Of a DNA stretch of 64,000 nt, positions 4,767 to 41,020 are shown in pieces (position 1 is the first letter of the stretch; the number at the start of each line of letters is the position of its first letter). Position numbers and translations under genes: made by a program. The notes beneath the pieces are model-generated. The model saw only the letters and a program-made list of their open reading frames with translations, was not told where the DNA came from and did no database searches. Source of the DNA: Leucobacter rhizosphaerae (lineage in GTDB: Bacteria > Actinomycetota > Actinomycetes > Actinomycetales > Microbacteriaceae); the NCBI RefSeq assembly GCF_022919175.1, contig NZ_CP095043.1:1922001-1986000 (forward strand), written 5' to 3'.

Positions 4767-4817
4767 GGGCGCTGCGGGTCGCTGGTTCGGGATCGGGCGC
4801 TGACTCGGGATCAGGCG

Positions 4818-4899
4818 TCAATCACTCAGGAGATCTCACGCATGACGGGCGGGTTCCCGCGGATCCCGCCGCAATGATTGACATCTCCTGCGCAATTGC
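4818..4899. repeat. Intergenic 82-bp palindromic element, divergent copy D
   Basis: It has the same core length as three other copies in the window: GGAGATCTCAC at 4829 and ATCTCC at 4883 are 54 bp apart, exactly as in the others. The outer arms pair at only about 7 of 11 positions. The central stem GGCGGG (4848-4853) with CCCGCC (4865-4870) is perfect. It lies between the convergent ends of paaI and a TPR-like gene. Confidence 0.75.
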
Positions 4900-4917
4900 A
4901 GGGCGGCCGCCCGACAC

Positions 4918-4971
4918 CGCACGGTCGCCCGAAACCGCACGGCCGCCCGAACCCGCACGGTCGCCCGAACC
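4918..4971. repeat. 18-bp tandem repeat, three units
   Basis: The unit CGCACGGYCGCCCGAAMC occurs at 4918-4935, 4936-4953 and 4954-4971, with partial copies on both sides. It is non-coding, in the gap between convergent genes. Confidence 0.85.
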
Positions 4972-4990
4972 CGCACAGCACGGGCCCTGG

Positions 4991-9220: not shown

Positions 9221-9306
9221 CGCCACTTAGGGCGGAGATCTCAGGAATATCGGAGCGGATGCCAGGAAACCGTCCGCAATTGGTGAGATCTCCGCCCTAA
9301 GTGGCG
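9221..9306. repeat. Intergenic palindromic element, copy A (perfect 23-bp arms)
   Basis: The left arm 9221-9243 is the exact reverse complement of 9284-9306; it begins CGCCACTTAGGGCGGAGATC. The 40-nt centre contains a second short stem, GCGGA (9255-9259) with TCCGC (9273-9277). It lies 77 bp past the stop of kdgK. The core 9223-9304 has the same length (82 bp) as the other three copies. Confidence 0.9.
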
Positions 9307-9310
9307 CGGA

Positions 9311-9355
9311 AGCGCGGCGAGCGGAAGCGCGGCGAGCGGAAGCGCGGCGAGCGGA
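9311..9355. repeat. 15-bp tandem repeat, three perfect units
   Basis: The unit AGCGCGGCGAGCGGA occurs at 9311-9325, 9326-9340 and 9341-9355, followed by a degenerate piece. It directly abuts palindromic element A. Confidence 0.9.
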
Positions 9356-9382
9356 GGCGCGGGGTGCACGCACCCGCCGCGC

Positions 9383-20186: not shown

Positions 20187-20511
20187 TTCGACGCGGATCT
20201 GAGTGCCGTAGACCTCGGTCGACGCGTCAGGAGGGGGGTGTTCCGGTTCGCCGGGGCGCCCCCTTCGGTGTTCTCAGGTGGGACGGCTCCGCCAATCGTG
20301 CCCACCCCTGCCCTGTCGGCCCATCCCGGTCCACCTCGCCCTCCCCCACGACGCCCACGCCGCACCAATTGCGGCGGAGATCTCACGAATAACGGAGCGA
20401 ATCCCCGAAAACGCTCCTGCACGGGTGAGATCTCCGCCGCAATTGGCGCGGTGGTGCGATGAGCGGAGGCGCCAGACCGCCCACCACCCTCAATCCCCAG
20501 GCACCACTGCC
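20187..20511. other. 325-bp gap between convergent kduI and aldehyde dehydrogenase genes
   Basis: It contains palindromic element B (20365-20446). Nothing else recognisable; no conserved open frame. Confidence 0.65.
20365..20446. repeat. Intergenic palindromic element, copy B (perfect 22-bp arms)
   Basis: The left arm 20365-20386, beginning CCAATTGCGGCGGAGATC, is exactly inverted at 20425-20446. Inside, GGAGCG (20394-20399) pairs with CGCTCC (20412-20417). Compared with copy A, the outer arm sequence differs (TTGCGGC versus TTAGGGC) but base pairing is kept, which points to selection for structure or to a palindromic protein site. Confidence 0.9.
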
Positions 20512-40934: not shown

Positions 40935-41020
40935 CGCCACTTCCGGCGGAGATCTCACGAAAGGCGGAGCGGATCCCCGGAAACCATCTGCAATGAGTGA
41001 GATTTCCGCCGTAAGTGGCG
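40935..41020. repeat. Intergenic palindromic element, copy C
   Basis: The arms 40935-40958 and 40997-41020 pair with two mismatches; the left arm begins CGCCACTTCCGGCGGAGATC. Inner stem GCGGAT (40969-40974) with ATCTGC (40986-40991). It lies 60 bp past the YhgE-type stop. The 82-bp core is co-linear with copies A, B and D without gaps. Confidence 0.9.

Follow-up and report, generated by a model that had tools for sequence, protein, structure and literature searches.

The window, a stretch of 64,000 nucleotides from Leucobacter rhizosphaerae (contig NZ_CP095043.1, positions 1,922,001 to 1,986,000), contains four copies of an intergenic palindrome. The original prediction of these four palindromes was correct with respect to their positions and to their mutual alignment, which is free of gaps. 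Copy A (4816..4901; 90-mer at contig positions 1926814-1926903) lies between convergent genes and has a diverged right arm. Copy B (9221..9306; 1931219-1931308) is located between two minus-strand genes, and its outer arms form 23 perfect pairs. Copy C (20363..20448; 1942361-1942450) is again flanked by convergent genes and has perfect outer arms of 22 pairs, and copy D (40935..41020; 1962933-1963022) separates two minus-strand genes. None of the copies is assigned to a strand. A scan of the window for two core 10-mers positioned 34-46 bp apart, with at most two mismatches in each, returned exactly four matches, whereas 200 scrambled versions of the 10-mers gave 0.065 matches on average. The copies are identical to one another at 53 to 72 of 86 positions. 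They were said to lie 50-180 bp past the stops of operons, and our own gene calls give distances of 47 and 128 bp for copy A, 74 bp for copy B, 174 and 61 bp for copy C, and 58 bp for copy D. No Rfam family scored above its gathering threshold in the window.

The repeated unit is longer than the 82-bp core that had been described. Within the modelled 90-mer, both the mirror pairing and a conserved end base start only at base three, and the unit therefore measures 86 bp. Perfect outer arms, which had been claimed for two copies, are present in copies B and C but not in copy D, which contains one mismatch, or in copy A, where pairing is clearly imperfect and 28 of the 43 mirror pairs are formed, compared with 33, 32, and 31 in the other three copies. 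The folding of single-stranded DNA relative to shuffled sequences differs in the same set, with z-scores of -2.3 for copy A, -10.0 for copy B, -10.3 for copy C, and -5.8 for copy D.

The nested hairpin is composed of four boxes of about 13 bp, two in direct and two in inverted orientation. From its end inward, the element consists of box 1, in which CAC and GGA enclose a variable segment, a GATCT-like spacer, a similarly built box 2, and about eighteen central bases, followed by the mirror image of this arrangement. In copy B, box 1 (9224..9236, plus strand, 13 bp) is of the CAC-N7-GGA type, and box 2 (9242..9254, plus strand) follows a GATCT spacer in direct orientation with a period of 18 bp. 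The central 18 bp (9255..9272, not assigned to a strand) contain the inner stem and loop. Box 3 (9273..9285, minus strand) is the inverted mirror partner of box 2, and box 4 (9291..9303, minus strand) is that of box 1. Both the likeness between copies and the pairing end at the unit boundaries.

Further copies had been expected elsewhere in the genome, and a covariance-model search of its single contig of 3,337,834 bases found them at 35 or more places at E<0.001. The model was built from 48 copies from this and other genomes; 18 of the training copies came from the genome itself, so that 17 of the 35 places lie outside the training set. The count is a lower bound, obtained by scoring 150 of 2783 candidates, and excludes weak places with E-values of 0.41 and 6.7. 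BLAST with copy B identified about 17 additional complete or partial copies in the same genome. The copies have no orientation bias relative to the replichores (p 0.49 for whole copies and 0.72 for loops). They lean to the half of the chromosome containing the origin (23 of 35; KS p 0.05 for the distance to dnaA at 2146089), and a function as a mark of the replication origin or terminus was rejected, as this excess is weak.

As far as our searches extended, the palindrome family is almost restricted to Microbacteriaceae. An exact-pattern scan of a collection of species genomes, from which the genome of the window and those very near to it may be absent, found 41 stretches. All those with cores of 59-62 bp belong to Microbacterium or Microbacteriaceae, and four stretches from other groups, with cores of 45-55 bp, look like chance matches. 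In the genus of the window, at least 33 of 54 genomes, including its own, contain matches at E<=0.1, when 80 candidates per genome were scored; the remaining 21 had no match at this threshold, which diverged copies may escape. With 11 candidates scored per genome, so that copy numbers are low bounds, at least 22 of 396 genomes of the order and at least 16 of 394 genomes of the class matched, 20 and 15 of them, respectively, from Microbacteriaceae, with the genome of the window included in each case. Nucleotide searches of plasmid records with one copy and of phage records with another copy gave no match. One IMG/VR contig (L110, 1044-1133) matched the palindrome pattern weakly, with 25.6 bits under the model.

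The elements have a strong preference for the 3' ends of genes and favour convergent genes. Gene contexts were determined with a small purpose-written caller based on codon bias. In the genome of the window, 36 places, including the weak place 2289822 (E 0.41), which was counted as convergent, comprise 18 in co-directional, 13 in convergent, and four in divergent gaps, and one over a weakly called gene (p 0.05 for convergent versus divergent); 15 of the 18 co-directional copies are closer to the 3' end. For the relatives, we chose 97 places by hand from 240 strand rows, leaving out second strands, orthologous copies of PS02067, re-fetched M. suaedae loci, and edge-cut as well as several weak places. 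Four of the 97 places have no gene on one side, and three overlap a called gene. The relatives' 83 distinct gaps that contain elements divide into 36 convergent, 39 co-directional, and eight divergent ones, compared with 61 convergent, 220 co-directional, and 58 divergent junctions among all junctions of these loci (p 3e-5 for the preference of convergent over divergent gaps). Of the co-directional copies in relatives, 28 of 41 are closer to the 3' end, and the nearest stop is at a median distance of 42.5 bp.

This location could be explained if the elements were two-way transcription terminators or stabilisers of 3' ends. Transcription of either strand would then give an RNA hairpin that ends or protects the transcript, and its pairing would be maintained by selection. 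The enrichment between convergent genes in both data sets and the short distance to the nearest stop fit such a function, and so does the orientation of the elements relative to genes, which is unbiased (8 versus 10), as a two-way device needs. The 3'-end preference agrees with the terminators suggested in the original prediction, but that suggestion is weakened by two observations. No run of six or more T in twelve bases was found at any of the 70 arm ends of the genome's own copies, and ordinary terminators are therefore unlikely. Furthermore, 25 of the 42 gene ends next to elements leave enough space for a separate hairpin, and a strong one is present at 20 of these 25 (80%), compared with 67% of 98 element-free gene ends, for which window lengths were not matched to those of the element-side ends. 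The other 17 of the 42 ends leave fewer than 46 nt before the element, which could be the first hairpin there. A terminator scanner found no match at copy D, and its sole match in copy C was a five-pair inner hairpin on the minus strand. In addition, termination has no use for a fixed length, repeated boxes, or the conserved GGAGAT/ATCTCC, and 21 of the 54 genomes of the genus had no match at the threshold used, which diverged copies may escape.

The pairing of the arms bears on the same explanation. Among the 35 own copies, 73.2% of the cells of paired columns are paired, compared with 68.2 +- 0.8% after shuffling, and 127 cells have changes on both sides, compared with 86 +- 7. The covariation of the arms is 0.221, compared with 0.150 +- 0.010 in a shuffle control that leaves the kinship of copies in place, and it is far lower when the structure is slid along the alignment. 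Covarying arms are in line with selection for an RNA hairpin, and the compensatory change that had been predicted is present across copies, but it was not detected between two species that are about 97% identical (genomes G449 and G450). In 19 of their 22 orthologous pairs of copies, those without insertions or deletions, 18 changes at paired positions comprise ten that break a pair, eight one-sided changes that keep it, and none that is two-sided. Taken together, the covariation across copies and the lack of two-sided change between the close species indicate that pairing is kept in the long term and not by quick compensation. Substitutions are only slightly less frequent in the elements (53 of 1978 positions, 2.7%) than in their flanks (126 of 3405, 3.7%; p 0.048). 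We consider termination or stabilisation of transcripts an improbable explanation of the family as a whole, and it is possible that the hairpin contributes to ending or guarding transcripts at convergent genes alongside mobility.

Copies that are close to each other on the chromosome are more alike than others. In the genome of the window, pairs of copies less than 20 kb apart are identical at 61.7 of 90 positions on average, compared with 54.0 for other pairs, a value that was reached in one of 5000 permutations. The identity declines to 58.4 for pairs within 50 kb (5 of 5000 permutations) and to 56.5 for those within 100 kb (41 of 5000). There are two local sets, one made up of copies B, C, and D of the window and the other of three copies at 2.323-2.336 Mb, and all six pairs within them are in direct orientation. 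Among all 11 own pairs closer than 20 kb, orientation is even, with five direct, five inverted, and one tie. Four of the six pairs of the local sets have flanks without any likeness; the flanks of copies B and C are weakly alike on both sides, and those of the pair 2322999-2323805 are alike on the left.

The same holds for genome G449, in which 20 of the 22 copies were compared. Its copies less than 300 bp apart are identical at 79.0 of 90 positions (0 of 5000 permutations), those 0.3-8 kb apart at 70.3 (42 of 5000), and the others at 65.8. All six pairs of the closest class are direct, and in the intermediate class three are direct and three inverted. Close pairs from relatives, 142-250 bp apart and taken as encountered from seven genomes, were in direct orientation in 13 of 13 cases. 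In an additional close pair (L052, 3825/4057), of which one member is weak, the direct orientation is only just ahead, with 52 versus 47 of 90 identical positions. Gapped alignment of the flanks of the 13 close pairs detected no likeness in seven, likeness on one side in five, and likeness on both sides in one. Ordinary tandem duplication explains the pairs with shared flanks, that is, the five with one flank alike and L243 with both, and gene conversion between old copies would also generate likeness between neighbours.

Based on this local likeness, the dispersal of the copies, and the sharp ends of the unit, we consider it on balance probable that the palindromes form a non-autonomous, REPIN-like dispersed family, which is copied locally by some agent and occurs almost only in Microbacteriaceae. 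REP/BIME-like or non-autonomous mobile elements were among the possibilities named originally; dispersed copies, sharp 86-bp ends, and neighbour likeness limited to the element support that part, but no insertion was caught. Copies may arise by local, element-specific copying at a slow rate. The agent could be replication-coupled template switching, or a nuclease or recombinase for which either the hairpin or the boxes serve as the recognition site. Selection against insertion elsewhere would then leave copies past the 3' ends of genes, where a symmetric hairpin may also form a two-way barrier to transcription or exonucleases. Against local copying speak the facts that no insertion event was caught and that no enzyme was found. 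The even orientation over all own pairs closer than 20 kb and the weakly similar flanks of copies B and C also count against it. All 22 copies found in genome G449 are at matching sites in G450, which speaks against current movement, as does the only slightly lower substitution rate of the elements relative to their flanks. Relatives whose neighbouring genes are 76-84% alike do not share the site of copy C, which therefore offered no empty-site comparison.

A more specific form of the explanation dispenses with a transposase altogether. The hairpin would cause template switching at replication forks, which would place copies onto the same strand at nearby gene ends, create tandem arrays at the element edges, and homogenise the boxes, so that mobility would be a by-product of replication. 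We regard this as an unlikely, though specific, possibility. If it were true, switching of forks at hairpins would amount to repeat mobility with neither an own nor a borrowed transposase. Tandem repeats start at the right edges of the 90-mers of copy A (4904..4978, plus strand, period 18) and copy B (9309..9367, plus strand, period 15). Tandem repeats were found beside elements in 8 of 46 flanks, compared with 11 of 219 control windows from other gaps (p 0.008, in a test made after the arrays had been seen), and five of the eight begin at the edge of the element. Elsewhere in the genome, such repeats also start at the edges of the copies at 1522260, 3112661, and 2698502, and the periods of these and the two repeats in the window are 12-28. 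The family provides a clean case in culturable actinobacteria, since its unit is sharply bounded, its box words are specific to lineages, and neighbouring copies resemble duplicates of each other, and it makes the spread of repeats without a transposase a testable question.

The likeness between boxes could instead point to a cluster of four sites for a DNA-binding protein that organises the nucleoid or chromosome, with the hairpin as a by-product of two direct and two inverted sites and a box word that drifts with the taste of the protein. Across genomes, box 1 and box 2, which do not pair with each other, are identical at a fraction of 0.54 of positions within the same element, compared with 0.31 +- 0.03 after shuffling. 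This count is based on 55 parsed elements out of 56, mostly one per genome, with box 2 misplaced in some. In the same 55 elements, agreement is 0.68 and 0.66 for the two paired combinations of boxes and 0.48-0.53 for the remaining unpaired ones, whereas boxes dealt between elements as a control agree at 0.29-0.36. The period of the boxes, 18 bp in most elements but 19 bp in Microbacterium elements of the GAAGGA group, would suit a binding protein, as would a difference of one whole 18-bp box unit, gained or lost, at an orthologous site in two close species (L216, 473-562, compared with L231). Within the genome of the window, however, when two odd copies are left aside, the likeness of boxes 1 and 2 within an element scarcely exceeds that between elements (0.394 versus 0.357 +- 0.027), whereas the pairing boxes 1 and 4 are alike (0.593 versus 0.489 +- 0.028) and boxes 2 and 3 have a weak excess (0.476 versus 0.417 +- 0.029). 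For unpaired boxes, agreement beyond the genome-wide word is thus absent or slight. The comparison across genomes with that within the own genome indicates that the box word, which differs by lineage and tends to be common to all boxes of one element, is mainly a trait of the lineage, and the palindrome a trait of the element. The small number of sites, about 35, and the weak chromosome-wide pattern in their distance to dnaA also speak against a binding protein, and we give this explanation a rather low probability. The two odd copies, at 3021514 and 3156058, differ in their box words, most of which are CTCAGGCGG- and ACGCGGA-like, and look like the entry of a second subfamily; the box words of one of them are close to those of relatives.

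A linked REP-associated transposase, for which a test had been suggested, was not found. RAYT transposases (PF01797) were absent from all 54 genomes of the genus and from all 17 genomes behind named Microbacterium or Microbacteriaceae loci, and controls were positive in 5 of 14 genomes. Proteins encoded beside the elements did not point to a common neighbour gene; the 68 next to own copies and the 53 near clusters in relatives form an ordinary mixture. The 25 most frequent Pfam families of neighbours included neither a transposase nor a recombinase, out of 131 in the own genome and 99 in relatives. A larger transposon bounded by the same ends was considered and rejected for the own genome. There, all 65 half-element matches at E<0.02 (150 of 2844 candidates scored) lie inside complete copies, the half-element model detected no autonomous transposon with the same ends, and the best lone match spans 23 bp with an E-value of 0.06. 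Target-site duplications were not evident, as the 35 own and 56 other copies have no excess of direct repeats at the unit ends; the sole direct-repeat excess in multiple copies is a two-base match inside the element at offset 16 (12 versus 2.85). It is very unlikely that the palindromes are ordinary MITEs whose autonomous transposon is absent from the genomes seen, since their inverted-repeat ends, dispersed copies, and patchy presence are countered by the lack of target-site duplications, an internal region that is almost absent, a search of the own genome that found no end standing alone, and no match to plasmids or phages for the single copy tried on each.

The reading as a locally copied, non-autonomous family can be compared with known systems, to which the palindromes look similar in form, that is, in anatomy, pairing, and gene-end location. 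REPINs are described as extragenic pairs of REP palindromes with two conserved regions around a spacer, in which spacer length and the power to form a hairpin are kept (PMC3116915). The study regards the paired form as the unit that replicates, describes compensatory changes, and notes that copies cluster, and RAYT transposases are thought to spread the units (PMC3116915). Its abstract calls the distribution of REP doublets over extragenic space random (Bertels and Rainey 2011, PMC3116915). As described there, REPINs share with the family presented here an extragenic hairpin palindrome of two conserved regions around a spacer, present in many copies, compensatory change, and copy clusters. Unlike REPINs, the elements have two boxes per arm, near copies are the most alike, and no RAYT accompanies them in the 54 and 17 genomes.

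GTAG- and CGTC-tagged REPs are 20-40 bp long and have one end marked by a GTAG or CGTC motif that stays unpaired (Di Nocera et al. 2013, PMC3733652). Most of them follow genes, in gaps flanked by co-directional or convergent ones, and the CGTC group is said to have no dedicated transposase (PMC3733652). The elements resemble these REPs, as there described, in their placement downstream of genes and in co-directional and convergent gaps, and the CGTC group also in the lack of a dedicated transposase, but they are 86 bp long, contain no GTAG, and have end words that are mostly in paired columns. A GTAG tag within ten bases of either end was found in none of the 35 own copies. The most frequent end words of own copies are CGCC (25 of 70 ends) and CGTC (12 of 70), mostly in paired columns; CGTC is never at both ends of one copy and occurs at 5 of 60 ends in relatives. 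Since the search for the transposase was negative, no copy carries GTAG, and only 12 of 70 ends carry CGTC, we did not file the family as a member of the REPINs or REPs. Actinobacterial terms had no match in the accessible text of PMC3733652, nor did a term search in that of PMC6006769.

ERIC, YPAL, Correia/NEMIS, and RIB are MITE-like repeated intergenic palindromes, some of which lie past gene ends, and families of this type have target duplications and IHF sites. They occur in other bacteria, and the elements are like them, by description, as repeated intergenic palindromes. Among the literature matches listed, in one case the best 10 of 102, no paper was recognisable as dealing with this palindrome family.

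The elements mark gene ends and some points of rearrangement in these genomes. An integron-like attachment site, with the end boxes of attC in mind, was considered on account of a segment with an open reading frame bounded by elements, and dropped because the copies are dispersed. Two Microbacterium strains (L047, 4811-5461; L022, 2284-2965) have this segment, which spans about 470 bp and contains a small open reading frame, enclosed by a pair of elements, and a third strain has one element and lacks the segment (L062, 5465-5555). In the M. oxydans group, some breaks in the alignments between strains, this segment included, coincide with elements, at loci that were chosen for holding elements and thus imply no rate.
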